Assembly: GCA_002245135.1 (NCBI GenBank)
Contig: NGBS01000293.1
Span: 434,001-498,000 of the forward strand
From: Proteromonas lacertae
Lineage: Eukaryota; Sar; Bigyra; Opalinata; Proteromonadidae
DNA length: 64,000 nt
Direction of reading: 5' to 3'
Below, piece after piece: positions 10,059 through 39,112 of this stretch. Under the pieces are notes generated by a model. It saw only the letters and a program-made list of their open reading frames with translations. It was not told the origin of the DNA and did not search any database. Both the position numbers and the translations under genes were made by a program. Numbering within the stretch: position 1 is the first letter of the stretch; every line of letters starts with the position of its first letter.

Positions 10059-13000
10059 ATGAATGAGCAAGAAATTGAATTAACTGATGTTACAAGTGAT
10101 AAAAACACCCAACTTCCAATAATAGATGTATCACTAAACACTGCGAAAGAAGCTTTAGAACATGGTTATGAATACTATGCTAAACAGATAAAGACAATGT
10201 TACCTGATTTACCTCCAGTAGATATAGCAATGAAAGGTGTTAATGTAACTGCACAACAACCAATTAGTGCAAAACATGGTACAACTAATGTTTTATCAGG
10301 TTTTTACAACCAAATTAGAAGCTTGTTTCCATGCGGATTATATACACCAAAATCAGTTCTCAGAAATATCACATTTAGATTTAAACCTGGTACTTCAACA
10401 TTAGTAATGGGTCCTCCATCATGTGGCAGCTCCACTGTATTGAAAGCACTGGCAGAAATCTTACCCAAAAGTCAAATTAGTGGAAGTATAAAATGCAATG
10501 GCAAGGATTTGAGTGAATTAAACTGGAAAAGATATTCTAGTTTCTGTGGACAATTAGATATTCATTTACCGCTATTAACAGTAAAGGAAACATTCGATTT
10601 CGCAGTTGCATGTTTAAATGGTAAAGGAGAAATGAAAAGTAAAGGTCATTCAATGATAGAAGATGATATTAACTTAAGAACAGATTTATTCCTCACATTA
10701 TTAGGTTTAAAGAATTGTGAAAACACAATCGTTGGAGATGCAGTTCATCGTGGTTGTAGTGGTGGTGAAATGAAGAGAGTGAGTTTGGGAGAGTCATTAT
10801 TAACACCATCAAGGGTGTTGCTCCTTGATAAAATCAGTACTGGTTTAGATAGTGCAGTAACATTTGATATTTGTAAATTCTTAAATCAATGGACAAAAAT
10901 ATTTGAAGGAATCTTAGTATGTCACTTGTTACAACCAGATCCTGAGGTAATTGCATTATTTGATAATATGATAATATTGAGTGAAGGTCAAGTTACTTAT
11001 GCTGGTCCATGTGATGGAATATTACCTTATTTCAATTCAATTGGTTATGAAATGATAGAAGGAAAAGATTTAGGTGCATTTATCTGTGAAGTTGGTAAAG
11101 AAGAAACAAGAATAGTTTATCGAAAAGATGAATCAATTCCATTAACAACTCAATATTTAGTAGAGAAATATGAAATGAGTGATTTGAAGAAGAATAATCT
11201 AGAAAGTGTGAATGAAAAAGTAGAAAAAACAGAAGTTCCAAAGAATGATTATAATGAAACGATGTTCAATAAATCCCATCCAATGCCATTTTGGCATGAA
11301 TTAATGTACTTATTAAGAAGGCAATTAACTATCACTTTACAAGATAAAGGATTTATAATGATAAGATTATTACAACAAGTAATAATGGGTTTAATATATG
11401 GATGGATATTCTTTCAAGTAGATTCAAATGATTATATTGCCAGATGTGGCTCGGTTGTAGCTTGTGTAATGACATTGGTAAATACTGCAATGTCATTAGT
11501 TATTGCAATCTTTAGACAAAAGCCTGTCTTATATAAGCAAGTCCAAAGAGGATATTTCTCAGTTCCTTCGTATGTTCTAAGTGTTGTTGTGAATCAATAT
11601 CCTATGCAATTAATAGAAGTAGTGATATATGGTTCAATTATCTATTTTATGAGTGGATTTAGTTTGACTGAAGGTGGTTCACATTATTTCATATTCATAG
11701 CCTATTTGTTTATAGGATATATCACATTTACCTCATTTCAGTTGATTATGATGTATTTATATGGAAAATTAGCTGTATTATCCGCTTTCTTACCAATTGT
11801 TGGATTCTTTTTAAACTCATTTAATGGCTTCAATATAACTCGTAATACTTTACCCAAATGGTTAATCGAGTTTTATTATTTCAGTCCAATGAGTTATATG
11901 ATTAAAGGAATGGCAATAAATGAATTTACAAGTAGTAAATATAACCGTGAAGATGCAATTCGTTATTTAGAAGCATTTGATTTTCCAACAGATAAGAATG
12001 AACAATGGCAATATTTCTTGATATTAATTTGTGAATGTATTGTGTTTATAATTCTACAAATGATTGTATTACATTATATTGTATATGATCCATTTCCACC
12101 AAGTAAAACCGTTTCAATAAAAGATGTGAAAGCTGTTGATGTAACAAGACAAAGTGAAATGAGTGCAAGATCTTCAGCTTCAGAAGTTAATTTTAACACA
12201 GTTGATTTTTCATTTGAACATATAAAATATACAGTAAAAGTAAAAGATGCATCAAGTAAAAGAAAGATAGATAAAGTATTATTGAATGATGTAAGTGGAT
12301 ATGTTCGAGCTCACAGTATGACAGCATTAATGGGAGCAAGTGGAGCTGGTAAAACAACATTATTAGATGTATTAGCAAACAGAAAAACACAAGGAAAGAT
12401 AGAAGGTAAATTCTTATTGAATGGAAAAGAATATAAAATGAAAGATTTATGTATGATAAGTGGATATGTTGAACAACAAGATACATTACCTGAAACTGAG
12501 ACAGTAATGGATGCATTGATGTTTAGTGCCAGATTAAGATATCCAGGTCATCCTCGAGAATCTACAATCCACAATTATGTAAAACAGGTAATTGAATTAT
12601 TAGAATTAAAAGAATATAAAGATATGATGATAGGTGCTCCAGATAGTGGTTTACCAATGGGTGTTCGAAAATTGGTGATGGTAGGAATCGAATTAGTAGC
12701 TAATCCATCAATATTATTCTTAGATGAACCAACAACTGGATTAGATAGTTCAGCTGCTTTATTAGTATGTCAAGTCTTACAAAGAATCGCAGCAAGTGGC
12801 CGAAGTATAATTTGTACAATCCATCAACCATCATTTGAAATATTCAAGTTATTTAGTGATGTATTACTATTAGAAAGAGGTGGAAAAGTAGTATATTTTG
12901 GTCCACTTGGTGAAAATGGTAGTAAAGTAGTAGAATATATGGAAAAGATTGATGGAGTTAGTGGAATTGGTAAAGATCAAAATCCAGCCAGTTGGATGTT

Positions 13001-14012
13001 AGATGTAACTGGAGCTGGAACAGGAAATACAAAGAATGTGAAATTTGGTGATTATTATTTGACAACAGATTTATATCGTAATATCGAAAACACCTTAGAA
13101 AATATAAAAATTGGAGATAATAAAGCGGTGAGTTTCAAAGAATCTTATGCAGTTTCAATATTCAAACAAATTTATGAATTAATAAAACGTAATTTCCGAA
13201 ACTCATGGAGATTATTAGAATACAATATGGCTAGATTCCGAATCTCCTTATTTATGAGTTTAGCGATGGGTGTGTTATACTATCAAACTCCAATGGATAC
13301 AACAGGTAATCTACAAAGTAGATATGCTTGTTTAGCGACTTTCTCAATGACAATGGCTGTTAACAATATCCTTGGAGTAGTTCCAGTGTTATTAGATCGA
13401 AGAACAGTTTTCTATCGTGAAGATGCGATGAGAACTTATCATCCAATTGCTCAATTAATTGGAGCATTGTGTGCAGAATTTGTATTTACTTTCTTCGTAA
13501 CATGGTGTTATTTATGTTTCTATTATTCAATGGCAGGATTGAAATCAACTGCTGAAGCTGTTTTTCGACATTTCTTTACAATGTATTCGTTTTTAATGTT
13601 TGCTGTAACAGCTGGTCATTTCTTTTCATATTTCTATCCAGTAGTTCAGATGAATGGTATATTTTCATCATGTTTGTTGAATATTTTGTTTACTTCAAGT
13701 GGTTTTACAATTCCTTATCCTTCATTAAAAGCTCCATGGAAACAGATATTTTGGATAAATCCATTAGCTTATATGGTTCAAGCTGCAGCTGGAAATCAAT
13801 TCAAATGTGATAGTTATGAAAGTGATATTGAAAAATGTGATAGTTTTACGTTTGCAGGTGAAAAGATGTATGTTCAAGATTATTTTGCTAGTCGATATAA
13901 TATTCGATATGATTTGTTTTGGAATTTCATTGGCTATATATGGATTGAGTGGTTTGTGATGGTGTTATTGTATTTTTGGGTATTGAAGAAAGTAAGATAT
14001 CTTGATCGTTGA
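10059..14012 (+). CDS. Full-size PDR-type ABC transporter (ABCG), paralogue 1
   Basis: Intronless, 1317 residues, with PDR order NBD1-TMD1-NBD2-TMD2. Such pumps export lipophilic drugs or lipids across the plasma membrane. NBD1 (about 100-320) has an altered Walker A, GPPSCGSST (Ser in place of Lys), an intact signature CSGGEMKRVSLGE and an altered Walker B, LLLDKISTGLDSA (Lys in place of the catalytic Glu). NBD2 (about 715-960) has an intact Walker A, GASGAGKTTLL, intact Walker B, LFLDEPTTGLDSS, and H-switch TIHQPS, but a degenerate signature, LPMGVRKLVMVGIEL. One composite ATP site is therefore degenerate and one canonical, the same asymmetry as fungal Pdr5/Cdr1 though with different substitutions. 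Six hydrophobic segments follow each NBD, and NKS/NYNE-type loops carry possible N-glycosylation sites. It has an inverted paralogue at 24161-28147 with near-identical NBD segments. TGA stop at 14010-14012. Confidence 0.95.
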   Translation: MNEQEIELTDVTSDKNTQLPIIDVSLNTAKEALEHGYEYYAKQIKTMLPDLPPVDIAMKGVNVTAQQPISAKHGTTNVLSGFYNQIRSLFPCGLYTPKSVLRNITFRFKPGTSTLVMGPPSCGSSTVLKALAEILPKSQISGSIKCNGKDLSELNWKRYSSFCGQLDIHLPLLTVKETFDFAVACLNGKGEMKSKGHSMIEDDINLRTDLFLTLLGLKNCENTIVGDAVHRGCSGGEMKRVSLGESLLTPSRVLLLDKISTGLDSAVTFDICKFLNQWTKIFEGILVCHLLQPDPEVIALFDNMIILSEGQVTYAGPCDGILPYFNSIGYEMIEGKDLGAFICEVGKEETRIVYRKDESIPLTTQYLVEKYEMSDLKKNNLESVNEKVEKTEVPKNDYNETMFNKSHPMPFWHELMYLLRRQLTITLQDKGFIMIRLLQQVIMGLIYGWIFFQVDSNDYIARCGSVVACVMTLVNTAMSLVIAIFRQKPVLYKQVQRGYFSVPSYVLSVVVNQYPMQLIEVVIYGSIIYFMSGFSLTEGGSHYFIFIAYLFIGYITFTSFQLIMMYLYGKLAVLSAFLPIVGFFLNSFNGFNITRNTLPKWLIEFYYFSPMSYMIKGMAINEFTSSKYNREDAIRYLEAFDFPTDKNEQWQYFLILICECIVFIILQMIVLHYIVYDPFPPSKTVSIKDVKAVDVTRQSEMSARSSASEVNFNTVDFSFEHIKYTVKVKDASSKRKIDKVLLNDVSGYVRAHSMTALMGASGAGKTTLLDVLANRKTQGKIEGKFLLNGKEYKMKDLCMISGYVEQQDTLPETETVMDALMFSARLRYPGHPRESTIHNYVKQVIELLELKEYKDMMIGAPDSGLPMGVRKLVMVGIELVANPSILFLDEPTTGLDSSAALLVCQVLQRIAASGRSIICTIHQPSFEIFKLFSDVLLLERGGKVVYFGPLGENGSKVVEYMEKIDGVSGIGKDQNPASWMLDVTGAGTGNTKNVKFGDYYLTTDLYRNIENTLENIKIGDNKAVSFKESYAVSIFKQIYELIKRNFRNSWRLLEYNMARFRISLFMSLAMGVLYYQTPMDTTGNLQSRYACLATFSMTMAVNNILGVVPVLLDRRTVFYREDAMRTYHPIAQLIGALCAEFVFTFFVTWCYLCFYYSMAGLKSTAEAVFRHFFTMYSFLMFAVTAGHFFSYFYPVVQMNGIFSSCLLNILFTSSGFTIPYPSLKAPWKQIFWINPLAYMVQAAAGNQFKCDSYESDIEKCDSFTFAGEKMYVQDYFASRYNIRYDLFWNFIGYIWIEWFVMVLLYFWVLKKVRYLDR

Positions 14013-14249
14013 ATGATATTTTCTACATGTTTTGATTAATATTTTTGTTATTTTTATTGTTTATTTTCTCTTTTCCTTTTTTAAATTGAATTGATGTAAG
14101 AGAGTATTTTAACTATAATTCTTGTTTTAAGAATGATTATCTTTGCAATAATGAAAAATAGAATTTTCACACCAATGAAAATGATGTTTTTATAAATAAT
14201 ACATCTTTCAAAACTTCTTCTTCATTATTCTTTTACTATCATAATTACT

Positions 14250-14953
14250 TCTTTCTATATACTGTTTCTACTTCATTAAATAACTCTCATCATTCACACA
14301 TATTACACTACAAGCTAAATCTTGAATTTATCTCACTTATATCTACTACACACATCCAATTCCATAAACAAATATTAAATATCATCTACATCATGTTTAT
14401 ATTACATTTCCACTTATCAATAACATAAACTAACACTAAAACTTAACTATTCATCATTTATATCATCATATCATATGCAATATACATTAATAAATCATAA
14501 TTAAGTGTTATTGTCTTCATCACACCTTCTGCAATTGAAATTAAATCACATTTTAAGTTTTGGGTTATTCAAAATTTTGATAAAATCGAATTTCATTATT
14601 TTTGTTATATATTTACATAAAGATGATAATAAAAGTGAATAAACGCATAAGAGAAGAGGGGTATATTTTGTATTTATTTTTATGATAGATTGTGTCGAAA
14701 ATTGGTTAGAAAGTGGTTTTGGTGATATAGAAGTGAAGATTAGAGATAATCGAATAATGTCAATCAAGTCAATTTTAGTGAATGGAAATGAAACTGTAAA
14801 GAAACTGTTGTTAGATGGTGAGTTTGTAGGAGTTTTGGAGTTATATGAAGAAATCGAAGAAATTGGCTATTATGAGATGGAGAAATACTACAGTGGTGGT
14901 GAACTGATAATGTGTAAAGAGAGTGTGTGTGAAGTGTTGATGTTTTGTTTTAT
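14250..14953 (+). pseudogene. Repeat-family copy 1: 5' flank plus truncated BTB/BACK-type gene
   Basis: From about 14250 to 14953 the DNA is nearly identical to the upstream flank and first ~90 codons of copies 2 (from 20806) and 3 (minus, up to about 39112). The coding match starts at about 14675 (FYDRLC...), and the domain text ESGFGDIEVKI, SIKSILVNGN and GYYEMEKYYSGGEL is shared. Identity stops abruptly in ...EVLMFCF at about 14953, where copies 2 and 3 go on with CYSEKEIINDCYE. In addition, one extra T at about 14706 shifts the frame relative to the other copies. It is a fragment with both 3' truncation and a frameshift, so it is not expected to make protein. It begins about 240 bp after the stop of the ABC gene and ends about 310 bp before the Crinkler/RHS-type gene. 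Confidence 0.85.
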
Positions 14954-15266: not shown

Positions 15267-18200
15267 ATGTCCGAGAAGAGAAAACTACCTGATTATTTTC
15301 AGTCAAGATATTCTAAGAAAAATTGTACTGGTGTAAATGATATTATAGGGGGAAAATTGAAGGATATTGACTTTATTAGCAGTAATTCTGTTTCTTATGG
15401 GGAAGTTCATTACAAATTCATACTGAATGAATTTAATGATGAAGTTTATTGTGGTTATAGTGAAAATTATTATAATATTTCTGAGAATAGTCCTTATATT
15501 AAGATATTAGCAGATCATTGTGAAACATTTGATGGAAAACAAATAACAAGTATCAAAGGAAACGTAGGAATAGCTTATGAAGTGATTTATGATATGATCA
15601 ACAGAAGAATGTATATTAAAGAAACGAATGGCGTTCCAGTGGAAATATGTACAATCGATTCATTAGGAGCAATTTTTCTATTTGTTACAGTGGGTAAGAA
15701 TAGTGAAGTTGAGTTTATAGACCATTGGAAATTACCACTCATAGTAAATAGAAAAAAGATTCATAATAAAAGAATTGATAATAATATTTTTAGTTTTAAA
15801 ACACGTACTGAACAGTTATATAATAATGATAGTGATAATGTTTGTGATAAAATAGAGTATGTTGTTTGTAATGAAGTATTCAAAGATATTGGTAACCACA
15901 ATTTTGATTTTATCTTAAACACAGAAATGAAAAAGAATGATGGATTATATCATTTCTATTATCAATTAATTAGTGATGGTCAAAGTATTAGCTTTGGTTA
16001 TTTTGATACAGAAATACAACTAACGAAAATTCAAGGAAAAGTAGGAGAAATATATGAAGTAATATATGATATGATAAATATGAAAATGTGGATTAAAAAA
16101 GAAAATGGTACAATAAGAGAAACAGCAGAAGCCATACACTTGCCAACACCACCAATACAATTACCAGTAATCTTAATTAAACCGATATATCCATGTGTTA
16201 GTATTGGCAATGCAAAAGGTTTAGTTAAATTAATAGAATATTATAAAGAAAGAGAGAATTATATGTCATATAAGGATATTGCAGTGTATAAGAATACTAG
16301 AATTTATGAAATTGATGATTACAGAGAATATGATAGAATCTATTTAGCAAATGTGATAGATGTGCCAAATACTATTTATGGAATATACAATTATGAAAAG
16401 TATTACTGGATGTATGAATTGTCATTAATAAAGGCTAATGCGCCAAACACTGATCTTAAAACGATAAAAGAGATTATACAAAGAAGATTTGTATTAAATG
16501 TTAAACAAAAAGAATATGTAGATTCAAGTGATATTTTTGATTTAATAGTATTCATGAACTGTTATGCTGATGAAATTTCAGATTCCTTAGATTTGCCAGA
16601 TAGTTTCATTAGAGTGGTTAATAATATGAGTATTATCGAACTGGATAGGTTAGATAAGGAAGGTAAAGTTGTTCAACCTATTGAAAAAAAGAAATATTTA
16701 CATTTTATATCAGCAAAGAATGATGTATTCCAATTTCCTACAAATAACATTTACATTAGAAAAGGTTATTACACAATGTATAGAGATATTGCTAAACTTT
16801 TCAAAAAATATACCAATGTTATAATCACAGGCCATCCAGGTATAGGTAAAACATCTTTTATATATGTTATACTATTCTTTATAAAGAATTTATATAAGAT
16901 GGAAGCATTAACTAAAGAAATATATGGTATTAGAAATAATCTGAATGATTTAGGTTTAGCAAATGTATGTGAATTGAATCCCGATGATAAAATTAACGAA
17001 ATAACAGAAGAAATTACCAGAATAGTAGAAGAAATAAGGGATGAATATAAAAGACTAAAATATATTAAAAGAATAATAAGCTCCAAAGCAGAAACTTTAC
17101 CTCATAGATCGGAGTGTTTACATTATATTGATTATATTGTTAATGGAATGATACGTGTAAATAATTATTATAATTTTAGAATAGATGAAATAGAAGATGA
17201 TAATGAGCTGAAATATAATGATAGTTTATACAATGATATAAATCCTTCGTTGGATATAGTCCATCAATTTTATTTAAGATTAGAGGAAGAAATTAAAAAG
17301 ATTGATAATCTAACTCTCATCAAAAGATTATTCTTTTTATTAAAAGAAAAAATAGATGAATTAAATATCATTAAGGATTATACAAAAATAGATAATTTTT
17401 TAGATGATTCATGGAGAAGAAAAGACGGAAAGTTGAAAGATATTTATATAGTAAAAGGAAAGAGATGGGGAAATTCAAGTGACAAAAAAATATATTTATT
17501 TAGAGATGGTTTTATTTTTAAAATATACATTCCATTGGAAGATATTAATGATTCGATAATCATAGTTGACACTTTAAATGAAGAATTCGGAAGAAATAAC
17601 AAAATAATATCAATTAGTTCACCTGAAAACAAAAACTATGACAGATATGAGACGACATCCATAAAATATAAAGAAATGTATTTTGATTCTTTGGATGATA
17701 TAGAAATTAGGGAATGGTTTAAGTACTGTACTGGTTTTAATGTTAGTGTTGAAGATAATAATTTTAAAGAAATATGTGAAAGATATGGATATATTCCTCG
17801 TCAAATATATTACCATTATTTGTATAAAGAAAATTATGAAAACAGAAATTATTGGAAATATTATAATCAGTTGATAGATGGTGTTATAGGTACTATTGGC
17901 TATCAGAAGTTTAAAAATGCATATCAACATAGAGACTCTTTAAAAGGTTATCCTTTATCCAACATTATATTAAAATATCAGTTTCAATCAAAATGGAGTA
18001 ATGAGTTAGGACATTTTATATTAAAACCGGAAGAAGAATTAATATATATTTCCAATTCAGTTAAGAATTATATTCAGTGTAAATTCTATCCACCTAAAGA
18101 TAATGAAGAATATGGTTTACTCAAAAATACATATAAGTCATTTACTGATATATATGTGAAAAGAATGTCATTAAAACAAGTTATAGCATATGAATTAAGT

Positions 18201-18497
18201 ATTAATAAGATTAACTTTAGAATAGTAAAAACTGATAATAGAAGACATGATGAATATGTAAGTAATCCAAAATTCAAATTAAATACTAATAAAGATGTAT
18301 CTTTTTGTAATAACAATAATACATTGAACCTTGTTTATTTTATATTGGATGATAATAATTTCTTTGATCTAATTATGGATGGAGTATTTATTAAAGTATT
18401 AGATGATGATGAGAAGTTAGATAATAATGAAAGGTTTAATAAGGATAATGTACCACATAATATTAAAGAAAGAATGGAACAATCAATAAAAGTATAA
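15267..18497 (+). CDS. SPRY-like x2 + Crinkler/RHS-type NTPase with remnant nuclease end
   Basis: Single exon; the first ATG is at 15267 (MSEKRKLPDYF), giving 1076 residues. Residues ~45-150 and ~195-320 are two SPRY-like beta domains, each with the strand motif YEVIYDMIN(R/M)(R/K)M(Y/W)IK, close to YEVIVDMNKREFWIS in the neighbouring repeat family. From ~505 there is a P-loop NTPase: ITGHPGIGKTS (Walker A, ~520), IIIVDT (Walker B, ~766), then SISSPENKNYDRY, and GYIPRQIYYH at ~840. That order (sensor SP...NY, then GGIPR-like) is typical of the Crinkler/RHS superfamily, whose members end in a PD-(D/E)xK nuclease. Here the end (YFILDDNNFFDLIMDG, ~1025) looks like the start of such a nuclease, but it lacks the Q-x-T strand and stops soon after, so it is probably inactive. 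Family members act as secreted effectors or in conflict and transposon biology; no signal peptide is seen here. Next gene starts 103 bp downstream, same strand. Confidence 0.75.
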   Translation: MSEKRKLPDYFQSRYSKKNCTGVNDIIGGKLKDIDFISSNSVSYGEVHYKFILNEFNDEVYCGYSENYYNISENSPYIKILADHCETFDGKQITSIKGNVGIAYEVIYDMINRRMYIKETNGVPVEICTIDSLGAIFLFVTVGKNSEVEFIDHWKLPLIVNRKKIHNKRIDNNIFSFKTRTEQLYNNDSDNVCDKIEYVVCNEVFKDIGNHNFDFILNTEMKKNDGLYHFYYQLISDGQSISFGYFDTEIQLTKIQGKVGEIYEVIYDMINMKMWIKKENGTIRETAEAIHLPTPPIQLPVILIKPIYPCVSIGNAKGLVKLIEYYKERENYMSYKDIAVYKNTRIYEIDDYREYDRIYLANVIDVPNTIYGIYNYEKYYWMYELSLIKANAPNTDLKTIKEIIQRRFVLNVKQKEYVDSSDIFDLIVFMNCYADEISDSLDLPDSFIRVVNNMSIIELDRLDKEGKVVQPIEKKKYLHFISAKNDVFQFPTNNIYIRKGYYTMYRDIAKLFKKYTNVIITGHPGIGKTSFIYVILFFIKNLYKMEALTKEIYGIRNNLNDLGLANVCELNPDDKINEITEEITRIVEEIRDEYKRLKYIKRIISSKAETLPHRSECLHYIDYIVNGMIRVNNYYNFRIDEIEDDNELKYNDSLYNDINPSLDIVHQFYLRLEEEIKKIDNLTLIKRLFFLLKEKIDELNIIKDYTKIDNFLDDSWRRKDGKLKDIYIVKGKRWGNSSDKKIYLFRDGFIFKIYIPLEDINDSIIIVDTLNEEFGRNNKIISISSPENKNYDRYETTSIKYKEMYFDSLDDIEIREWFKYCTGFNVSVEDNNFKEICERYGYIPRQIYYHYLYKENYENRNYWKYYNQLIDGVIGTIGYQKFKNAYQHRDSLKGYPLSNIILKYQFQSKWSNELGHFILKPEEELIYISNSVKNYIQCKFYPPKDNEEYGLLKNTYKSFTDIYVKRMSLKQVIAYELSINKINFRIVKTDNRRHDEYVSNPKFKLNTNKDVSFCNNNNTLNLVYFILDDNNFFDLIMDGVFIKVLDDDEKLDNNERFNKDNVPHNIKERMEQSIKV

Positions 18498-18599
18498 TTA
18501 TATATATTTATTATGAAATAGGAATATAGTAAAAATGATGATTTTGTGTATTGTGTAATCATATATCAAACACCACCCAAAATTATATATAATACAGAA

Positions 18600-20189
18600 A
18601 TGACATTTCAACCTCTGCCTCAACCATTATCAGTACCTGTAACCCCATCACTATTACTACTACTACCACCACCACTAGCACCAATATCCTCAACTACAAC
18701 TGAAGAAAATTATGTTTTTGTAGGTGATAAAACATATCTTATGAGAAAATGTTATAAAGATATGTTGAAAATTATTTGTAAAGATGATTTTAATTTTCCA
18801 TATCAAAGAAATTATTTAATATTTGGTAATAGTAAAATTGGTAAAACAGTATTAGGTGATATTCTGAAGGATAAACTTGAAAAAAAGTTATCTGGAAATA
18901 TTCAAGTATTTACAGATTATGGAAGTGAACAACATGAATCAAAGAAAATAAAATATGATAAGAATAAACCATATGTCGTCATTGTTAGAGGAAAAGCTGT
19001 AGGTGAAGATGATTATGCTGATGCAAAAATGGTTATAATGTTAGCTAATCCATCTGATGAAAAGTGTAAAACATTTCAAAGCAAAAGATGTCCATTGGTG
19101 ATGTATATACCTCCATTTACAAAAAAAGAAATAGAAGAAGTAGTAACTATGTTGGGAATAAGTAAAGACTTAGAAGCAGTTGACATACAATCTAATATAC
19201 AATTATATCTTGATAAATATGAATTATATGGAGGTGTTATTGGAAATTATGGTATAAATGAAAGTATATTAGAATTATGTGTAGATAGTAATTTGATGAA
19301 AGAAAAGATGAAAGGTATTAGTAAATCATCTTTGTCAAAATGTGAGTATGAAAAACTACTCATATATGAAACAGATGAAAATGATGTTACTAAGTCTGAT
19401 AATCTTAGATTTCTATCTGATACTATTAGAGAAATTGTATATAAAGTGCTATTTAAAGATGTTCGTGGTTGTAAAAATATGATAGACATGTTTGATGAAT
19501 ATCCAACTGGATCTGGAGCAGGAGAATTATATGAAAGAATTATATTTTATTTGATGAAAAATTCAACTGATTTTAGAAATGATATTGTTAAAAAAATGAA
19601 GGATTTGATGTGGGAAATATTTAAAGATGATGAAGATTCAAATGTTTTAAAAGAATTTCTTAAGAAGAAAGTGTACGTAAGTAATGAAAAAAGTGAAGTG
19701 AAAAGTGAAGCTGATTTGAAAAAGAGAATTACACAATTCTGTAATAATGACGATGAAATGGCATTCATTCCTTTAAATTATTGTCATGATTTCCCTGATA
19801 TTGATGCTTTAGTTGGACCGTTTGGTATTCAAATTACAATTCGTAAACAACATAAATTTGCTCCTGAAATGGCAATGATTCTTCAAAATTTGTATAGAAT
19901 GTATACAGAAGGATATAATGAACAAGCAAAGAATTATATTACCACTGTTGATGAAAAATTTAAATTTGGTTACTTTTTTATAAGTAATCAAAATAATGTT
20001 TATTATGAAAAAGTATTTGACAGAGTTACTGAGTATTATCCAAGTTTTTTTCAAGAATTAACACAAGATTTAGAAGATGATGAAAAAGAAGTATTGTATG
20101 AATTAGCTAAAAAACAGAAAAGAACAATACTTGTTGAAAGTAAAACTCTATATTTATATTGTATGAAGTTGATAGAACAAACAAAATAA
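18600..20189 (+). CDS. Crinkler/RHS-type protein: P-loop NTPase plus PD-(D/E)xK-like nuclease
   Basis: Single exon, ATG at 18600 (MTFQPLPQP), 529 residues. The N-terminus (1-40) is Pro/Leu/Ser/Thr-rich and low complexity. A compact NTPase follows: IFGNSKIGKTVLGDIL (Walker A, ~75) and KPYVVIVRG as the likely Walker B strand without an acidic residue. The region KMVIMLANPSDEKCKTFQ then CPLVMYIPPFTKKEIEEVV corresponds to the SP...MPxW..EL stretch of the superfamily, and ELYGGVIGNYG to the GGIPR element. The C-terminal region keeps a nuclease-like core at ~398-420: FPDIDALVGPFGIQITIRK, matching the D...Q-x-T...K pattern of Crinkler/RHS REase domains, with KRTILVES near the end. NTPase motifs look weaker than in the neighbour while the nuclease core looks better, so the two tandem genes are complementary. 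Role as intracellular effector or host-parasite conflict protein is inferred from family knowledge. Confidence 0.75.
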   Translation: MTFQPLPQPLSVPVTPSLLLLLPPPLAPISSTTTEENYVFVGDKTYLMRKCYKDMLKIICKDDFNFPYQRNYLIFGNSKIGKTVLGDILKDKLEKKLSGNIQVFTDYGSEQHESKKIKYDKNKPYVVIVRGKAVGEDDYADAKMVIMLANPSDEKCKTFQSKRCPLVMYIPPFTKKEIEEVVTMLGISKDLEAVDIQSNIQLYLDKYELYGGVIGNYGINESILELCVDSNLMKEKMKGISKSSLSKCEYEKLLIYETDENDVTKSDNLRFLSDTIREIVYKVLFKDVRGCKNMIDMFDEYPTGSGAGELYERIIFYLMKNSTDFRNDIVKKMKDLMWEIFKDDEDSNVLKEFLKKKVYVSNEKSEVKSEADLKKRITQFCNNDDEMAFIPLNYCHDFPDIDALVGPFGIQITIRKQHKFAPEMAMILQNLYRMYTEGYNEQAKNYITTVDEKFKFGYFFISNQNNVYYEKVFDRVTEYYPSFFQELTQDLEDDEKEVLYELAKKQKRTILVESKTLYLYCMKLIEQTK

Positions 20190-20805: not shown

Positions 20806-21183
20806 AACCTTCATCATTCACACGTATTACACTACAAGTTAAATCTTGAATTTATCTCACTTATATCTACTACACACATCCAATTCCATAAACAAATATT
20901 AAATATCATCTACATCATGTTTATATTACATTTCATTATCAATAACATAAACTAACACTAAAACTTAACATTCATCATTTATATCATCATATCATATGCA
21001 ATATACATTAATAAATCATAATTAAGTGTTATTGTCTTCATCACACCTTCTGCAATTGAATTAAATCACATTTTAAGTTTTGGGTTATTCAAAATTTTGA
21101 TAAAAATCGAATTTCATTATTTTTGTTATATATTTACATAAAGATGATAATAAAAGTGAATAAACGCATAAGAGAAGAGGGGT
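20806..21183 (+). repeat. 5' flank of repeat family, copy 2
   Basis: Non-coding sequence almost identical to 14284-14690 (copy 1) and to the reverse complement of about 38712-39070 (copy 3). The last ~115 bp are also shared with copy 4 (57885 onward). It includes the strings attaagtgttattgtcttca and gggttattcaaaattttgat. It probably carries the family promoter, because it is the only conserved DNA before each coding region. Confidence 0.85.
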
Positions 21184-23263
21184 ATATTTTGTATTTATTT
21201 TTATGATAGATTGTGTCGAAAATTGGTAGAAAGTGGTTTTGGTGATATAGAAGTGAAGATTAGAGATAATCGAATAATGTCAATCAAGTCAATTTTAGTG
21301 AATGGAAATGAAACTGTAAAGAAACTGTTGTTAGATCGTGAGTTTGTAGGAGTTTTGGAGTTATATGAAGAAATCGAAGAAATTGGCTATTATGAGATGG
21401 AGAAATACTACAGTGGTGGTGAATTAATAATCTGTAAAGAGAGTGTGTGTGAAGTGTTGATGTTTTGTTTATGTTATAGTGAAAAAGAGATAATAAATGA
21501 TTGTTATGAATTTGTGAAGAATAATATAGATGATGAAGTATTAATGAAATTAATTCATATGTGTAATGTATTTGGTGGATGTTTGAGAGAGATAGAAGAC
21601 TTGAAAAATATGGAAATAGAAAAGCGAGGATATAAATATTTATATAAGAATGAATATTTGTTGAGATTAGAAATGAATAATTTGATAGAGATATTAAACA
21701 CGAAAGATGTGATAATAGTGAATGAGTTATGGTTATTAAATCGATTGTTAGAATGGTATAAATTCCAAAAGAATAAGAAAGATAATAAAGAGATTAAAGC
21801 AGATTTTAAACAATTGATAGAAGAAGATATCGATGGTGAAAAGATAAAAGAGAAAGAGATAGAAAAAGAGAATAAAGAAATGTTGAAAGAAATGAAAATA
21901 GAATTAAAGAAAAATGAATGTAAAAATCATATAGAAATATATTTAATAAAAGATGATAGAATTCAAAATGTAATAATCAATAATTACAATGAAGATAATG
22001 AAGAAGAATTTAATGAAGAAGAAAGAAGAATATTGGATAAAATGAAAGAAGAAGAATTGAATGATGAAATAATGTGTATATTAGAAATGAATAATATAAA
22101 AATAACAGAAATAGTATTGATGATAATGAAATATAAAAATATGAAAATGGAAAGTATAAATACTAAAAATATATTTAAATAGAATATATCTCAAATATCG
22201 AAAAGAGAAATCTATTGGAAAGACTATATATAGAATATAATGAGAATAAAAGAAATCGAACAATGAAATGTTTATGTTTGTTTGTTGATGATAAAAAGAA
22301 TATTTCAATAATAGAAGAAGTATGTGGAAAAGAGATTCTTTTTAGAATATTGAATGAAGATAATTATTTAAATTCCATATCCAAAGAAATATTAATAGAA
22401 TATATAAAAGAGAATAAATTGAGTTTCGAAGAAGAAGAAGAAATGATTGTAATAATGAAAGATAAAGAATTATTGAGTGAATTAAAAACAAAAGAAATCA
22501 CATCATTTTCATATCCTCAATTAGAATATTCATTTGAAATAAATGAAGAAATATCAATAATTCCATCATTTGATGGAAATCGATGTGAATTTTCAATCAA
22601 TCCTTCATTACCTGATGGTTTAATGATAGATAAAGAGAATGGAATAATTAATGGAAAAGTGAATAAAGAAATAGAAAATAGAGAATATGAAATAATATGT
22701 AAGAATATTGTAAATGAAAAGAAATTCAAAATATCATTAGAATGTATGTTAGGAAAATTCACAGAATTAAACAAATGTGATGGAATATCAATATCAAATA
22801 ATGGAAAATTAATAACAAATCCTCAAAATGGTTGGCATCATTGTTATTTGAATTTGAAAATGGAAAATGGAATATATCATATCAAATATAAATTTCATCA
22901 AAATGGAAGTTATAATGATGGTATAATGTTAGGATTATCAAATAATAATACATATTCTGGTGGTGATATTTATTATCAATCAACAACATATAATTATTGG
23001 AATATGATTGTTTAAGTCAAGATATTGCTCAATTTTGTCATATTGGAAGAGTTGTTAATAAAAATCCAAATTTCAATAATCATAGAGATGGTTCAATTTA
23101 TGAAGTGATAGTTGATATGAATAAAAGAGAATTTTGGATAAGTCATAATAATTCATCTCCTGTTTTACTTGTTGAAGATTTACCTTCTCCATTATATCCA
23201 TATGCTGAATTATTTTATAAAAACACATCAATAGAATTGTTATCAGTTTCTCATCAAGATTAA
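21184..23263 (+). pseudogene. Repeat-family copy 2: BTB/BACK - acidic linker - putative Ig - SPRY-like gene
   Basis: Compared with intact copy 3, all domains are present: an N-terminal BTB-like region (GFGDIEVKI...SIKSILVNGN), a BACK-like helical region (CYEFVKNNIDDEVLMKLIHM ... ELWLLNRLLEWYKFQ), a Glu/Lys-rich linker, a putative Ig (He_PIG-like) segment (FSINPSLPDGLMIDKENGII) and a SPRY-like end (GSIYEVIVDMNKREFWIS). The break after NTKNIFK is only apparent: a 29-nt intron (22154-22182, GTATAAAT...AAATAG) restores the frame. Two true defects are seen. There is no in-frame ATG at the place used by copies 3 and 4 (copy 2 reads AGG/ATA there), and one base is missing at about 23000 in the SPRY-like domain, where copies 3 and 4 agree. 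It could be a very young pseudogene or contain sequence errors. BTB/BACK proteins often serve as cullin-3 adaptors; that role is only inferred here. Confidence 0.8.
22154..22182 (+). other. Conserved 29-nt intron of the repeat family (copy 2)
   Basis: GTATAAATACTAAAAATATATTTAAATAG splits a Lys codon (A|AA) and joins ...KMEK to YISNIEKRNLLE. The same 29 bases occur in copy 3 (37698-37726, minus) and nearly so in copy 4 (about 58977-59005). The internal ACTAAAAAT could serve as branch site. Confidence 0.85.
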
Positions 23264-23544
23264 ATATAATTTTTAATAATAACATTACTATTTTTTATTT
23301 GTTAGTATGTCATCACTGTGTATCTACTAGATTAATAGCAAAATGTACATATATATGCTGTATATTGAGTTTTATTATAATAAAAATATATTCGTTACAT
23401 ATTTTTGTTTTTTTTCTTTAAATGCAGAAATATAACATAGAATTCGATTCTGATATAGAATAGAAGCAATATTGATAAATATATTCAAGTTGAAACCATT
23501 TATCTCCTCCAATATTATATTAATTACCTTTTTCTCTAGTTAAT

Positions 23545-23970: not shown

Positions 23971-24160
23971 TTTGTAATTATTTAGCCAATAAAATTAAAT
24001 AAATAATTTCTGCTTTAATTTCCTCTTGTTACACATGAATAAGAGAAAATTATGAATTAATTACATAAATATGATATATAAAAATGTTACATAATAAATA
24101 AACACAAAATAACAATAAAGAAATACAATAATAATGAATATAATAATGAAATAATAGTAT

Positions 24161-27100
24161 TTATCTGTCAAGAAATCTCACTTTCTTTAATGAGAAATAC
24201 AAGAATATAATAATAATAACAATTTCTATCCATAAATATCCAATATTATTCCAATATTGACTGTATCTTATATCATACATATTACTAAAAAACTCATGAA
24301 CAGTTGCTATACTTCCATCAGCATTTGTAAATGATGGACAATTCGTTATATTTATAACAGATTTTTCACAATCAAATTGATTAGCTGCTGAAGCTTGAAT
24401 TCCAAATGTAAAAGGGTTAATCCAATAAATCCATTTCCAAGGTGCTTTCATTGAAGGGTAACGAAGTTGAAAACCACTACAAGAAAATAAAATACTTGTC
24501 AAACATCCCATAACAACACTAGCTACTTGCATAACAGGGAATAAATAGGAGAACCAATAACCACACATAGTAGCTAACATCATCACTGAATAGTTTACTA
24601 TATATTCTTTAAATACAGCTGCTACTGTGCTTTTCAAACCCATCATTCCATAAGAGAAACACATGAAACACCAAGCTACAAAGAATATGAATATTATTTC
24701 CACTAAAACATAACCAATTAATTGAGCAATTGGATGATAAGTTCTCATCGCATCTTCACGATAAAACACCATTCTTCTGTCTAATAACACTGGAACTACT
24801 CCCATTAAGTTATTCATTGCCATGGCATTTATTGCTAATGCTAATGAAGAGTATCTACTTAACACATTACCAGATGTTTCCATTGGTTGTTGGAAGTATA
24901 ATATTCCTATGAATAAAGATAATATCAATAGATTTCTTATTTTTGATAAGTTATAATCTAATAATCTCCAATCAAATCGGAAATTTCTTTTACTTACTTC
25001 CCATATTTGTTTTGTTATTGAAACTGCATAATCTTCTTTGAAATTTATTGCTGGAGAATTGGCAGATTTTATATTCTCAAGAGTAATTTCTACATTACGA
25101 TATAAATCTGTTGTCAAATAATAATCACCAAATTTCACATTCTTTGTATTTCCTGTTCCAGCTCCAGTTACATCTAACATCCAACTGGCTGGATTTTGAT
25201 CTTTACCAATTCCACTAACTCCATCAATCTTTTCCATATATTCTACTACTTTACTACCATTTTCACCAAGTGGACCAAAATATACTACTTTTCCACCTCT
25301 TTCTAATAGTAATACATCACTAAATAACTTGAATATTTCAAATGATGGTTGATGGATTGTACAAATTATACTTCGGCCACTTGCTGCGATTCTTTGTAAG
25401 ACTTGACATACTAATAAAGCAGCTGAACTATCTAATCCAGTTGTTGGTTCATCTAAGAATAATATTGATGGATTAGCTACTAATTCGATTCCTACCATCA
25501 CCAATTTTCGAACACCCATTGGTAAACCATCCTCTTTTTTGCCTATCATCATATCTTTATATTCTTTTAATTCTAATAATTCTATCACTTCTTTTATATG
25601 ATTGTGGATTGTTGCTTCACTTGGATGACCTGGATATCTTAATCTGGCACTAAACATCAATGCTTCCATTACTGTCTCAGTTTCAGGTAATGTATCTTGT
25701 TGTTCAACATATCCACTTATCATACATAAATCTTTCATTTTATATTCTTTTCCATTCAATAAGAATTTACCTTCTATCTTTCCTTGTGTTTTTCTGTTTG
25801 CTAATACATCTAATAATGTTGTTTTACCAGCTCCACTTGCTCCCATTAATGCTGTCATACTGTGAGCTCGAACATATCCACTTACATCATTCAATAATAC
25901 TTTATCAACTTTCTTTTTAGTATCTCCATCTTTTACTTTTACTGTATATTTTATATGTTCAAATGAAAAATCAACTGTGTTAAAATTAACTTCTGAAGCA
26001 GAAGATCTTGCACTCATTTCACTTTGTCTTGTTACTTCAACAGCTTTCACATCTTTTATTGAAACGGTTTTACTTGGTGGAAATGGATCATATACAATAT
26101 AATGTAATACAATCATTTGTAACAATACAAATACAATATGCTCACAAATTAATATCAAGAAATATTGCCATTGTTCATTCTTATCTGTTGGGAAATCATA
26201 TTGTTTTAAGTAAATAATACCTTCTGGACCATAATCACTTGAAGTAAATTCATTTACTGCTAAACCTTTAATCATATAACTTAATGGAGTAAAATAATAA
26301 AATTCAATTAACCAATCAGGAATTGTTTTACGAGTAATACCAAATCCATTAAATGCATTCAATAAAAAACCAAATATTGGTAAAAATGCTGCTAAAATTG
26401 AGACATTTCTGAATAAATACAGTAAAACCAATTGAAGTGATGTATAAGTGACATAACCAACGAATAAGTAAGCCATACAAATCCAATAATGAACTCCACT
26501 ATCAGAAAGAGTTAATCCACTCATAAAATAGATTATACTACCAAACAGTAATGTTTCTATTAATTGAATAGGATATTGGTTTATTGTAACACTTGCAACA
26601 TAAGATGGAACTGAAAATAATCCACTTTGGACTTGCTTATACATCACTGGCTTTTGAAAAAATAATCCAATAACTACAGAATGTGATGTATTGATTAAAG
26701 TCATAACATAAGTAGAAATTAAACCACATTTTGAAGTATAATCGTCCTTTTTCAAATTGAAGAATATCCATCCATATACTAATCCCATTATTATTTGTTG
26801 AACAATTCTTGCTATCAAAAAACCTTTATCCATGAATGTGCATTTTCCTTGTCTTTTGATTAAGTACATTAATTCATGCCAAAATGGCATTGGATGGGAT
26901 TTATTGAACATCGTTTCATTATAATCATTCTTTGGAACTTCTGTTTTTTCTACTTTTTCATTCACACTTTCTAGATTCTTCTTCTTCAAATCACTCATTT
27001 CATATTTCTCTACTAAATATTGAGTTGTTAATGGAATTGATTCATCTTTTCGATAAACTATTCTTGTTTCTTCTTTACCAACTTCACAGATAAATGCACC

Positions 27101-28147
27101 TAAATCTTTTCCTTCTATCATTTCATAACCAATTGAATTGAAATAAGGTAATATTCCATCACATGGACCAGCATAAGTAACTTGACCTTCACTCAATATT
27201 ATCATATTATCAAATAATGCAATTACCTCAGGATCTGGTTGTAATAAGTGACATACTAAGATTCCTTCAAATATTTTTGTCCATTGGTTTAAGAATTTAC
27301 AAATATCAAATGTTACTGCACTATCTAAACCAGTACTGATTTTATCTAATAATAATACTCGACTTGGACCTAATAAAGATTCACCTAAACTCACTCTCTT
27401 CATTTCACCACCACTACAACCACGATTTACTTCATCTCCAACGATTGTATCTTTACAGATTGTCAATCCCAATAATTTCAAGAACAAATCACTTCGAATA
27501 TTTATATCATCTTCTATCATTGAATGGCCTTTACTTTTCATTTCACCTTTACCATTTAAGCAACCTACTGCGAAATCAAATGTATCCTTTACTGTTAATA
27601 AAGGTAAATGAATATCTAATTGTCCACAGAAACTTGCATAATGTGACCAATTCAATTCTTTCAATTCTTTACCATTACATGTAATTGAACCTGCTATTTG
27701 GCTTTTAGGCAATGTATTTGCTAATAATTTTAGCACTGTAGAACTACCACATGATGGAGGACCCATTACTAATGTTGAAGTACCAGGTTTAAATCTAAAT
27801 GTGATATTCTTCACTACTGGACGATCTTCATACAAACCACAAGGGAATAAACTTCTGATTTGGTTGTAGAATCCACTAATTATGTTAATCACACCATGCT
27901 TCTCACTCTTTGGTTGTTTGGCTGTATAACTTACTCCTTTCATAGCAATATCAACAGGTGGCAAATCTGGTAAAAAGGATTTCACTTGCTTAGCATAATA
28001 CTCATATCCATTTTCTAATGCTTTATTAGCTGAGGATAAACCAACCAGTTTTACTGGTAATTCTTCTTTTTGACTTTCATCACTCACTTTTGGCAATTCA
28101 ATTATGCAATTATTCATTAATGATTCAATTGGAGTTACAGAACACAT
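24161..28147 (-). CDS. Full-size PDR-type ABC transporter (ABCG), paralogue 2, inverted
   Basis: Intronless, 1328 residues, same domain order and motif states as paralogue 1: NBD1 Walker A GPPSCGSST without Lys, Walker B LLLDKISTGLDSA with Lys for Glu, intact NBD1 signature; NBD2 intact Walker A GASGAGKTTLL and Walker B LFLDEPTTGLDSS, degenerate signature LPMGVRKLVMVGIEL. Segments from NBD1 Walker B to the start of TMD1, and from the end of TMD1 through NBD2, are almost identical in DNA to paralogue 1, including third codon positions. Both TMDs (for example KRQGKCTFMDKGFLIARIVQ against RRQLTITLQDKGFIMIRLLQ) and the C-terminal extracellular loop differ strongly. The two genes converge on the 14-24 kb accessory block. 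Different substrates are likely because substrate contacts lie in the TMDs (inference). Confidence 0.95.
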   Translation of the reverse strand: MCSVTPIESLMNNCIIELPKVSDESQKEELPVKLVGLSSANKALENGYEYYAKQVKSFLPDLPPVDIAMKGVSYTAKQPKSEKHGVINIISGFYNQIRSLFPCGLYEDRPVVKNITFRFKPGTSTLVMGPPSCGSSTVLKLLANTLPKSQIAGSITCNGKELKELNWSHYASFCGQLDIHLPLLTVKDTFDFAVGCLNGKGEMKSKGHSMIEDDINIRSDLFLKLLGLTICKDTIVGDEVNRGCSGGEMKRVSLGESLLGPSRVLLLDKISTGLDSAVTFDICKFLNQWTKIFEGILVCHLLQPDPEVIALFDNMIILSEGQVTYAGPCDGILPYFNSIGYEMIEGKDLGAFICEVGKEETRIVYRKDESIPLTTQYLVEKYEMSDLKKKNLESVNEKVEKTEVPKNDYNETMFNKSHPMPFWHELMYLIKRQGKCTFMDKGFLIARIVQQIIMGLVYGWIFFNLKKDDYTSKCGLISTYVMTLINTSHSVVIGLFFQKPVMYKQVQSGLFSVPSYVASVTINQYPIQLIETLLFGSIIYFMSGLTLSDSGVHYWICMAYLFVGYVTYTSLQLVLLYLFRNVSILAAFLPIFGFLLNAFNGFGITRKTIPDWLIEFYYFTPLSYMIKGLAVNEFTSSDYGPEGIIYLKQYDFPTDKNEQWQYFLILICEHIVFVLLQMIVLHYIVYDPFPPSKTVSIKDVKAVEVTRQSEMSARSSASEVNFNTVDFSFEHIKYTVKVKDGDTKKKVDKVLLNDVSGYVRAHSMTALMGASGAGKTTLLDVLANRKTQGKIEGKFLLNGKEYKMKDLCMISGYVEQQDTLPETETVMEALMFSARLRYPGHPSEATIHNHIKEVIELLELKEYKDMMIGKKEDGLPMGVRKLVMVGIELVANPSILFLDEPTTGLDSSAALLVCQVLQRIAASGRSIICTIHQPSFEIFKLFSDVLLLERGGKVVYFGPLGENGSKVVEYMEKIDGVSGIGKDQNPASWMLDVTGAGTGNTKNVKFGDYYLTTDLYRNVEITLENIKSANSPAINFKEDYAVSITKQIWEVSKRNFRFDWRLLDYNLSKIRNLLILSLFIGILYFQQPMETSGNVLSRYSSLALAINAMAMNNLMGVVPVLLDRRMVFYREDAMRTYHPIAQLIGYVLVEIIFIFFVAWCFMCFSYGMMGLKSTVAAVFKEYIVNYSVMMLATMCGYWFSYLFPVMQVASVVMGCLTSILFSCSGFQLRYPSMKAPWKWIYWINPFTFGIQASAANQFDCEKSVINITNCPSFTNADGSIATVHEFFSNMYDIRYSQYWNNIGYLWIEIVIIIIFLYFSLKKVRFLDR

Positions 28148-36496: not shown

Positions 36497-36615
36497 TATA
36501 TTATTTAAGATATGTTGATTTTTTTCTTTTGATTTTAACTTTTTACATATTAACAACTATGTAGAAATAATACAACAATACATAATGATTTAATATAACT
36601 ATGCTTTTAAAAGAT

Positions 36616-38708
36616 TTAATCTTGATGAGAAACTGATAATAGTTCAATTGAAGTGTTTTCACCATATAATGCAGCATAAGGATATAATGGAGAAGGTAAA
36701 TCTTTAACAAGTAAAACAGGAGATGAATTATTATGACTTATCCAAAATTCTCTTTTATTCATATCAACTATCACTTCATAAATTGAACCATCTCTATGAT
36801 TATTGAAATTTGGATTTTTATTAACAACTCTTCCAATATGACAAAATCTATTAATATCTATACTTTTACCATTATATGCAACATATATACATACTGTTGA
36901 TTGATAATAAATATTATTACCAGAATATGTATTATTAGTTGATAATCCTAACATTAAATCATCACTATCTTCATATCCATTTTGATAATATTTATAATTG
37001 ATATGATAAACTCCATTTTCCATTTTCAAATTCAAATAACAATGATAATAACCATAACGTGTATTTGTTATTATTTTTCCATTATTTGATATTGATATTC
37101 CATAACTTTTGTTTAATTTTGTGAATTTAATCTGAAATTCTAATGATATCTTGAATTTCTTTTCGCTTTGATTATTCTTACATATTATTTCATATTCTCT
37201 CTTTTCGATTACTCTATTCACTTTTCCATGAATTATTCCATTTTCTTTATCTATCATTATTCCATCAGGTAAGGAAGGATTGATTGAAAATTCACATCGA
37301 TTTCCATCAAATAAAGGGATTATTGATATTTCTTCATAAATAGCAAATGAATATTCTGATTGAGGATATGAAAATGATGTGATTTCTTTTGTTTTTAATT
37401 CACTCAATAATTCTTTATCTTTCATTATTTCTATCATTTCTTCTTCTTCTTCTAAACTCAGTTTATTCTCTTTTATATATTCTATTAATAATTCTTTAGA
37501 TTTGGAGTTTAAATAATTATCTTCATTCAATATTCTAAAAAGAATCTCTTTTCCACATACTTCTTCTATTATTGAAATATTCTTTTTATCATCAACAAAC
37601 AAACATAAACATTTCATTGTTCGATTTCTTTTATTCTCATTATATTCCATACATAATCTATCCAATAGATTTCTCTTTTCTATATTTGAGATATATTCTA
37701 TTTAAATATATTTTTAGTATTTATACTTTCCATTTTCATATTTTTATATTTCATTATCATCAATACTATTTCTGTTATTTTTATATTATTCATTTCTAAT
37801 ATACACATTATTTCATCATTCAATTCTTCTTCTTTCATTCTATCCAATATTCCTCTTTCTTCTTCTTTAAAGTCTTCTTCTTTATTATCTTCATTGTAAT
37901 TGTTGATTATTACATTTTGAATTCTATCATCTTTTATTAAATATATTTCTATATGATTTTTACATTCATTTTTCTTTAATTCTATTTTCATTTCTTTCAA
38001 CATTTCTTTATTCTCTTTTTCTATCTCTTTCTCTTTTATCTTTTCTACATCGATATCTTCTTCTATCAATTGCTTGAAATCATCTTCTATCTCTTTATTA
38101 TTATCTTTCTTATTCTTTTGGAATTTGTACCATTCCAATAAACGATTTAATAACCATAACTCATTCACGATTATCACATCTCTCATATTTAATATCTCTC
38201 TCAAATTATTCATTTCTAATCTCAACAAATATTCATTCTTATATAAATATTTATATCCTCGCTTTTCTATTTCCATATTTTTCAAGTCTTCTATCTCTCT
38301 CAAACATCCACCAAATACATTACACATATGAATTAATTTCATTAATACTTCATCATCTATATTATTCTTCATAAATTCATAACAATCATTTATTATCTCT
38401 TTTTCACTATAACATAAACAAAACATCAACACTTCACACACACTCTCTTTACAGATTATTAATTCACCACCACTGTAGTATTTCTCCATCTCATAATAAC
38501 CAATTTCTTCGATTTCTTCATATAACTCCAAAACTCCAACAAACTCACGATCTAATAACAGTTTCTTTACAGTTTCATTTCCATTCACTAAAATTGACTT
38601 GATTGACATTATTCGATTATCTCTAATCTTCACTTCTATATCACCAAAACCACTTTCTACCAATTTTCGACATAATCTATCATAAAAATAAATACAAAAT
38701 ATACCCAT
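36616..38708 (-). CDS. Repeat-family copy 3 (intact): BTB/BACK - acidic linker - putative Ig - SPRY-like
   Basis: Two exons, 37727-38708 and 36616-37697, separated by the 29-nt intron 37698-37726, giving 687 residues without interruption; this is the reference copy. Start ATG at 38708 (MGIFCIYFYDRLCRKL). Order: BTB-like (residues ~13-115, GFGDIEVKI, SIKSILVNGN), BACK-like (~120-215, CYEFMKNNIDDEVLMKLIHM, ELWLLNRLLEWYKFQ), strongly charged linker (~215-345), a helical part before and after the intron, putative Ig/He_PIG-like (~430-490, FSINPSLPDGIMIDKENGII) and SPRY-like (~520-687, YHCYLNLKMENGVYHINYKY, GSIYEVIVDMNKREFWIS). BTB-BACK proteins typically bind cullin-3 and use a C-terminal domain for substrates; the SPRY end would fit that job (inference). 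No signal peptide. The 5' flank repeat follows at 38709-39112. Confidence 0.85.
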
Positions 38709-39112
38709 CTTCTCTTATGCTTTTATTCACTTTTATTATCATCTTTATGTAAATATACAACAAAAATAACGAAATTTGATTTTTATCAAAATTTTGAATA
38801 ACCCAAAACTTAAAATGTGATTTAATTCAATTGCAGAAGGTGTGATAAAGACAATAATATTATATTCTGATTTATTTATGCATAGTGCATATGATATGAT
38901 GATATAAATGATGAATGTTAAGTTTTAGTGTTAGTTTATGTTATTGATAATGAAATGTAATATAAACATGATATTAATGATATTTAATATTTGTTTATGG
39001 AATTGGATGTGTGTAGTAGATATAAGTGAGTAAAATTCAACAATTAGCTTGTAGTACAATATGTGTGAATGATGAGAATTATTAAATGAAGTAGAAGCAA
39101 TGTATAGAAGCA
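38709..39112 (-). repeat. 5' flank of repeat family, copy 3
   Basis: Reverse-complement match to 14250-14690 and 20806-21183, about 400 bp, ending near 39112 where similarity to copy 1 fades (both have an AAATAATTCTCATCATTCACA-like stretch). No coding potential of its own. Confidence 0.8.

Follow-up and report, generated by a model that had tools for sequence, protein, structure and literature searches.

A tandem SPRY-like header joined to twin predicted P-loop NTPases in a multi-copy gene family of Proteromonas lacertae

The Crinkler-RHS (CR) family was reportedly defined by Zhang et al. 2016. Excerpts of PMC5289972 describe such proteins, among them oomycete and fungal Crinklers and trypanosome retrotransposon hot spot (RHS) proteins, as modular families in which a variable header is followed by a P-loop nucleoside triphosphatase (NTPase), a helix-turn-helix and a predicted C-terminal nuclease; the NTPase is thought to regulate the nuclease, and the proteins occur in parasites as well as in free-living eukaryotes. 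Excerpts of PMC8195603 name couplings of SPRY domains with NACHT-type STAND NTPases and state that the SPRY domains of TRIM proteins recognise viral molecules. Here we describe a gene of Proteromonas lacertae that lies within a 64,000-nucleotide stretch of contig NGBS01000293.1 (positions 434,001 to 498,000; below, the window) and begins with the open reading frame (ORF) at 15267-18497 (+). Its anatomy is well supported by sequence comparison: a pair of SPRY-like repeats, two predicted NTPases and a conserved C-terminus, divided between two exons and shared by a gene family. The NTPase-nuclease theme is known; what appears to be new is the use of a SPRY-like tandem as header, the doubling of the NTPase and the exchange of headers. 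Among the matches listed in literature searches on SPRY, B30.2, STAND and Crinkler/CR, we found neither a SPRY header on a CR protein nor a twin NTPase or header exchange on a tandem-SPRY CR backbone, and a word search of PMC10853773 gave none of the terms.

With CR proteins the family shares its predicted general layout and, judging from Mantel tests and from tree tests on clades chosen post hoc, the modular exchange of headers. It differs in having a tandem SPRY-like header where theirs is of the ubiquitin-like (Ubl)/LFLAK type, and in a duplicated NTPase whose first copy carries a variable insert between Walker A and Walker B. STAND NTPases with SPRY or other sensors (e.g. NACHT-SPRY) combine a sensor with a P-loop switch, as is predicted for the family with its STAND-like NTPase, and nSTAND3 is the best-scoring Pfam neighbour of the family; however, its sensor is N-terminal, its NTPases are two, its Walker B reads VDT, and its effector is a predicted nuclease rather than a death-fold adaptor. 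The likeness to SPRY/B30.2 proteins (RanBP9/10, RyR, HERC1, TRIM) consists of a profile-profile match over the C-terminal half and of the ranking in fold searches, whereas the repeats are too diverged for the Pfam model and form a tandem pair used as a header.

Gene structure and family

The focal ORF is an uninterrupted ATG-to-stop frame of 1076 codons in AT-rich DNA (22-31% G+C per 2 kb across the window), and it is not a chance frame, because family members are present at 42 loci in the genome. The initial annotation ended with this frame. The frame is real but incomplete: comparison with paralogs indicates a gene of two exons that runs on to 20189, of which the frame forms only the first. 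Exon 1, delimited by the ORF, the 21-paralog alignment and the intron boundary, has a coding part of 1075 codons (15267-18491, +) and encodes in order a basic N-terminal stretch, two SPRY-like repeats, a linker, P-loop NTPase 1 with its variable insert and a conserved C-terminal region. Comparison with paralogous introns places a 30-nucleotide intron, GTAT...TAG, at 18492-18521 (+), followed by exon 2 at 18522-20189 (+), whose 555 codons and stop encode NTPase 2 and a conserved C-terminal domain. At the junction the window reads ...TCA ATA AAA, then GTATAATTATATATATTTATTATGAAATAG, then GAA TAT AGT..., and the V that forms the final codon of the focal ORF before its stop already lies within the intron. 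The ORF adjoining on the downstream side is 18546-20189, and the full predicted protein has 1075 + 555 residues, ~1,630 amino acids.

This gene model rests on paralogous introns at one codon together with intronless copies. A GTAT..AG intron was found at the same codon in 27 of the 35 paralogous stretches tested (29 rows, some of which are the same place twice). The distinct introns comprise 20 variants of 26-43 nucleotides, with lengths of 0, 1 and 2 modulo 3 in 8, 5 and 7 cases; the script took only downstream frames opening as xYS-like sequence, and the restored frame is therefore partly a filter. All other stretches tested, eight in number, are intronless. In seven of them (L015, L018, L019, L020, L021, L023 and L024) SIK or SIR reads directly into NYS or EYS, and translation of L042 gives the same reading, although the eight are not all independent, L019 and L020 being alike. 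A single frame spans both gene parts, measured from stop to stop, in L015 (1767 codons) and L020 (1543 codons). On the intron comparison we reject the reading of the focal and downstream ORFs as two separate genes. L015 and L020, both intronless, take different places in the NTPase tree (next to L007/L012 and to L016, respectively) but group with each other in the header tree (97/98); candidate explanations are loss of the intron, conversion and retro-copying.

A search of the genome (50.2 Mb, 1181 contigs) returned 78 stretches matching exon 1, grouped into at least 42 loci including the focal one, and 114 stretches matching exon 2 in at least 78 clusters. These counts are lower bounds; some pairs (L007/L008, L026/L027) differ so little that they may be allelic. 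The two parts occur together: an exon-2 match lies no more than 1.5 kb downstream on the same strand at at least 34 of the 42 exon-1 loci, and L027 (C493) has an additional downstream match beyond the 34 listed loci. Header sequence (residues 28-336) is present at 38 of the 42 loci, 37 of them plus C229 by our own reading of the matches. Inspection by eye of the DNA upstream of three exon-2 loci showed an NTPase 1 exon in each, with one SPRY-like repeat in L045 and L046 and none in L047; the number of header repeats thus varies from 0 to 2. In one exon-2 copy, L043 (170-1300), a long low-complexity stretch of (Q)QPQL type separates the intron from NTPase 2.

SPRY-like header and twin NTPases

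SPRY-like repeat 1 spans residues 28-168 (15348-15770, +) and repeat 2 residues 180-336 (15804-16274, +), and hhalign shows them to be mutually homologous (99.8%, E 2e-27). Repeat 1, identified by hhalign to repeat 2, matched bona fide SPRY domains weakly on its own (hhalign 3-5%). Repeat 2 was identified by hhalign, by the pooled-repeat profile and in Foldseek and VIA-align lists, and reached 51-81% with SPRY domains of the same genome. A SPRY profile matched the pooled repeats with a score of 34.6 (probability 69%; 30% in the reverse direction) compared to a maximum of 18.6 among 200 column shuffles, a control on which chance resemblance is rejected, and this match was mainly due to repeat 2. 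Furthermore, the ranking of fold matches by Foldseek and VIA-align, obtained with a low-confidence structure model, weakly favours SPRY. PF00622 matched 38 places in the genome, none of which coincides with the 42 family loci. Two SPRY-like repeats had been proposed initially; the profile comparison with its shuffle control and the fold ranking support them, whereas no Pfam SPRY match is among the families listed for the members and repeat 1 is weak. Together, these comparisons support N-terminal repeats that are SPRY-like and too diverged for the Pfam model.

Ahead of the repeats, residues 4-18 (15276-15320, +) form KRK-x(10)-KK, a stretch resembling a bipartite nuclear localisation signal. 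A bipartite basic pattern was found in 10 of 22 family N-termini, near-copies included, compared to 2.2 expected from shuffles. The hydropathy maximum (15 residues) near the N-terminus was -0.5 to 0.9 in the 22, and a hydrophobic segment was found in none. That the N-termini are basic and lack a hydrophobic leader favours a site of action in the nucleus of the producing cell. These features also bear on the possibility that the proteins are secreted or delivered Crinkler-like toxins, aimed at a host, at prey or at a competitor and using the SPRY-like header for delivery or target binding. CR proteins are modular (header, NTPase and nuclease) and many are effectors, as excerpts of PMC5289972 have it, and the present family is large and recombining; however, the N-termini carry no such segment, although unconventional export would be compatible with this, and we consider delivery unlikely.

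Conservation was assessed in two alignments, A1 with 21 exon-1 paralogs chosen for length, all single open frames of 840-1749 amino acids, and A2 with 12 exon-2 copies. Walker A of NTPase 1 (TGHPGIGKTS, residues 521-530, 16827-16856, +) has G522, G525, G527, K528 and T529 invariant in 21 of 21 paralogs, and the variable insert separates it from the Walker B-like IIIVDT (residues 764-769, 17556-17573, +), in which I766, V767, D768 and T769 are equally invariant. The SSP motif (residues 784-786, 17616-17624, +; SSP..NY 784-791) is invariant in all 21, and in GYIPR (residues 841-845, 17787-17801, +) every paralog has G841 and P844, and at least 90% have R845. Thus the ORF and every motif that the initial annotation listed (Walker A, IIIVDT, SP..NY, GYIPR) are present, and conserved across the paralogs. 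Their order is presumably that of Crinkler-RHS NTPases. Library matches to NTPase 1 were weak. The sole Pfam match of the window member was nSTAND3 over residues 505-537 (E 0.00018; 21.7 bits, below the cut-off of 27.2); nSTAND3 matches occurred in 12 of 21 members, the best at E 4e-6, and those to generic AAA models were as frequent (AAA_16 in 13 of 21). The Pfam RHSP and Crinkler models had no match in this genome and none in the control genomes, leaving that result without a positive control, and the same holds for PF20147 (Ubl/LFLAK header) in every control genome. No PDB match to the focal protein was obtained with phmmer up to E 5, and profile searches of the PDB gave nothing significant (best E 0.075 for A1, 0.24 for A2). 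The proposed Crinkler/RHS type is accordingly only partly supported: motif order points to Crinkler-RHS/STAND-like NTPases, and the libraries return nSTAND3 and AAA. PADLOC also gave weak matches only, chiefly mad8 in 10 of 21 A1 members (best E 0.0003); in the window member this match covers the Walker A region (residues 498-606) and probably reflects mere P-loop likeness.

NTPase 2 was recognised in A2 by its Walker A, FGNSKIGKT (18822-18848, +), and by a Walker B-like PYVVIVRG (18969-18992, +). With insert columns removed, NTPase 1 and NTPase 2 aligned at hhalign 92.8-93.5% with a score of 52.5 over 149 columns, whereas none of 200 shuffles scored above 30.4; keeping the insert gave 89.8%, but over only 45 columns around Walker A. 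This indicates that the gene encodes two mutually homologous P-loop NTPases. The C-terminal domain of exon 2 has as its core FPDIDALVGPFGIQIT (19791-19838, +; from A2), in which the pattern FPDIDAL..GPFGIQIT is strongly conserved and exon-2 residues F424, P425, D426, I427, G432, P433, Q437 and T439 are invariant in 12 of 12 copies. This core may correspond to the PD-(D/E)xK nuclease end of Crinkler-RHS proteins, which it resembles in motif. A single-sequence structure model of exon 2 (predicted local distance difference test score, pLDDT, 34) was too poor for a reading of the fold.

Header exchange and sequence constraint

We compared identity matrices of the gene parts by Mantel tests on 14 of the 21 A1 genes, five near-copies and L012 and L022 having been dropped. 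SPRY1 and SPRY2 plus linker agreed (r 0.77, p 0.0005), NTPase and exon-1 C-terminus agreed modestly (r 0.34, p 0.006), and header and NTPase did not agree (r 0.04, p 0.40). Across seven genes, exon 2 correlated with NTPase 1 (r 0.67) and not with the header (r -0.26). A single pair illustrates this: the DNA of L016 and L010 is 88-97% identical over residues 148-447, compared to 54-72% before this segment and 64-79% after it, with 70% in the two blocks that follow directly and 48-50% in the insert. Trees and approximately unbiased (AU) tests were made on 15 genes, with groups picked after the identities had been seen, so that the p values are optimistic. The header clade L010+L016+L028 (95/95) was rejected by the NTPase data (p-AU 0.0002), and the NTPase clade L016+L020 (100/100) by the header data (p-AU 4e-5). 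The NTPase data also rejected L013+L015+L020, grouped in the header tree (64/83, unstarred); for L009+L028, grouped in the NTPase tree (unstarred), the header result was weak (p 0.04), and the header tree did not reject L006+L009+L010+L016+L028 (p 0.10). Because header and NTPase histories disagree, we infer that SPRY-bearing headers have been exchanged between backbones of the family. The NTPase-effector backbone itself appears coherent, NTPase 1 and exon 2 co-varying.

Exchange within the family replaces an earlier suggestion about where the header came from, namely local domain capture from the BTB/BACK-SPRY family next door. The likeness on which that suggestion was built is real: the repeats are homologous to the SPRY-like repeat of the BTB/BACK-He_PIG-SPRY-like proteins in the window (hhalign 96-97%), which themselves match bona fide SPRY weakly (3-7%, single sequence). 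However, those proteins have another architecture, without an NTPase, and are not the local source of the header. Header sequence is present at 38 of the 42 loci; the fusion therefore extends beyond the window, and local capture is rejected as its origin.

Mean pairwise identity rises from the NTPase insert (0.33) and SPRY1 (0.37) through the linker (0.47), SPRY2 (0.51) and the C-terminus (0.54) to the NTPase core (0.61). The ratio of nonsynonymous to synonymous substitution rates (Ka/Ks) was estimated for seven close pairs, of which L007/L008, L016/L017, L013/L014 and L002/L003 have Ks below 0.12 and carry little information. In L010/L011 (Ks 0.02-0.19) Ka/Ks was 1.15 for SPRY1, 0.96 for SPRY2, 0.61 for the NTPase and 0.24 for the C-terminus; in L007/L012 (Ks 0.33-0.59), of which L008/L012 is the near-copy pair, it was 0.86 for SPRY2 and 0.33 for the NTPase. 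Two of the four low-Ks pairs gave 2-3 for SPRY2, on very few changes. The variability of the header may reflect either diversifying selection or relaxed constraint. The values for the NTPase bear on the idea that the NTPase-nuclease is a selfish unit, derived from a transposon or drive-like, whose copy number reflects its own spread and which has no cell function. The Crinkler-RHS core is held to stem from mobile elements (excerpts of PMC5289972 and PMC8195603), and the copies are many and some are broken, L023 lying in pieces and L018 being split. However, the 21 A1 rows are single open frames, though picked for length, the two-exon structure is conserved, and Ka/Ks in the NTPase core is below 1 in the two informative pairs, with 1.03 in L002/L003 at very low Ks; we regard a purely selfish unit as distinctly improbable.

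Several other genes were noted in the window. Two full-size PDR-type ABC transporters in inverted orientation, 10150-14073 (+) and 24100-28023 (-), flank the focal gene; their DNA is 81% identical, and the best catalogue relatives of the second copy, from metagenome contigs, reach 44%. Copies of the BACK / He_PIG-SPRY-like unit lie at 20811-23265 (+), 36614-39075 (-) and 57882-60126 (+), with a truncated copy at 14235-14950. They are recent duplicates of 91-98% DNA identity; the first two consist of two ORFs with a 32-nucleotide gap in which no GT..AG intron was seen, and part of the third (59586-60092) reads with stops. Two overlapping ORFs at 50945-56570 have PA14 and He_PIG (putative Ig) domains and end, by eye, in a possible transmembrane segment; they likely represent a surface receptor whose reading is broken by either an intron or a shift of frame.

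Proposed function

The reading that we put forward, tentatively, is that the gene encodes a sensor-switch-effector protein. The SPRY-like header would bind a protein or peptide ligand, ligand binding would shift NTPase 1 to another nucleotide state or oligomeric state, NTPase 2 would act as its partner or regulator, and the C-terminal domain would then cut DNA as a nuclease, probably in the nucleus. SPRY as sensor, NTPase 1 as switch and the C-terminus as nuclease are roles assigned by analogy. That headers are exchanged while the backbone stays coherent suggests that selection favours a multitude of recognition specificities, as it does among intracellular immune receptors or in polymorphic repertoires of toxins and effectors. 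A more specific version, which we think somewhat unlikely, is an innate-immunity-like protist repertoire of intracellular receptors, diversified by header recombination, in which tandem SPRY sensors would be interchangeable on a backbone of twin Crinkler-RHS NTPases and nuclease that destroys DNA upon ligand recognition. The intron, second NTPase, C-terminal domain, family and header shuffling on which these proposals draw all go beyond the initial annotation.

Several observations weigh against a sensor-switch-effector protein. Pfam SPRY is absent among the 25 of 40 families listed for 21 members (E ≤ 1). The C-terminal domain had no library or PDB match in profile searches, which returned nothing beyond the P-loop, so that its assignment as a nuclease, made from motif likeness, is putative. 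In NTPase 2, the Walker B aspartate is R in the window copy, while D is found in 10 of 12 aligned copies. The Walker A-B insert is as variable as the header (identity 0.33), and the fast evolution of the header could therefore be relaxed constraint. Finally, no relative outside the genome was found in a 5.8-billion-protein catalogue, with a single sequence (E ≤ 0.01) or the exon-2 alignment (E ≤ 1), in viral contigs searched with A2 or in prokaryote genomes searched with A1, searches that rely on words or patterns in common and overlook distantly related proteins. Eukaryotes are represented in the catalogue: the PDR control returned 52 proteins at E ≤ 1e-50, the best of 44% identity (metagenome contigs).

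A last alternative is a family of ordinary intracellular ATPases that carry SPRY adaptors, work like chaperones or remodellers and have no role in conflict; header mixing would then be plain gene conversion. SPRY domains are found in many housekeeping proteins, and some paralogs share one contig, e.g. C634 and C969. However, header and backbone histories are sharply decoupled, and a catalogue that includes eukaryotes held no relative; we judge such a family improbable.

For annotation, these genes indicate that an intron of ~30 nucleotides can make a single gene of this lineage look like separate ORFs. If the sensor-switch-effector reading is true, the Crinkler-RHS theme would gain a SPRY header of sensor type and a duplicated NTPase, and the swapping of headers while NTPase and effector stay together would be the pattern expected of a recognition repertoire. 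The use of recombining sensor-nuclease proteins by single-celled eukaryotes, whether in self-defence, in attack or as selfish elements, would then become testable.

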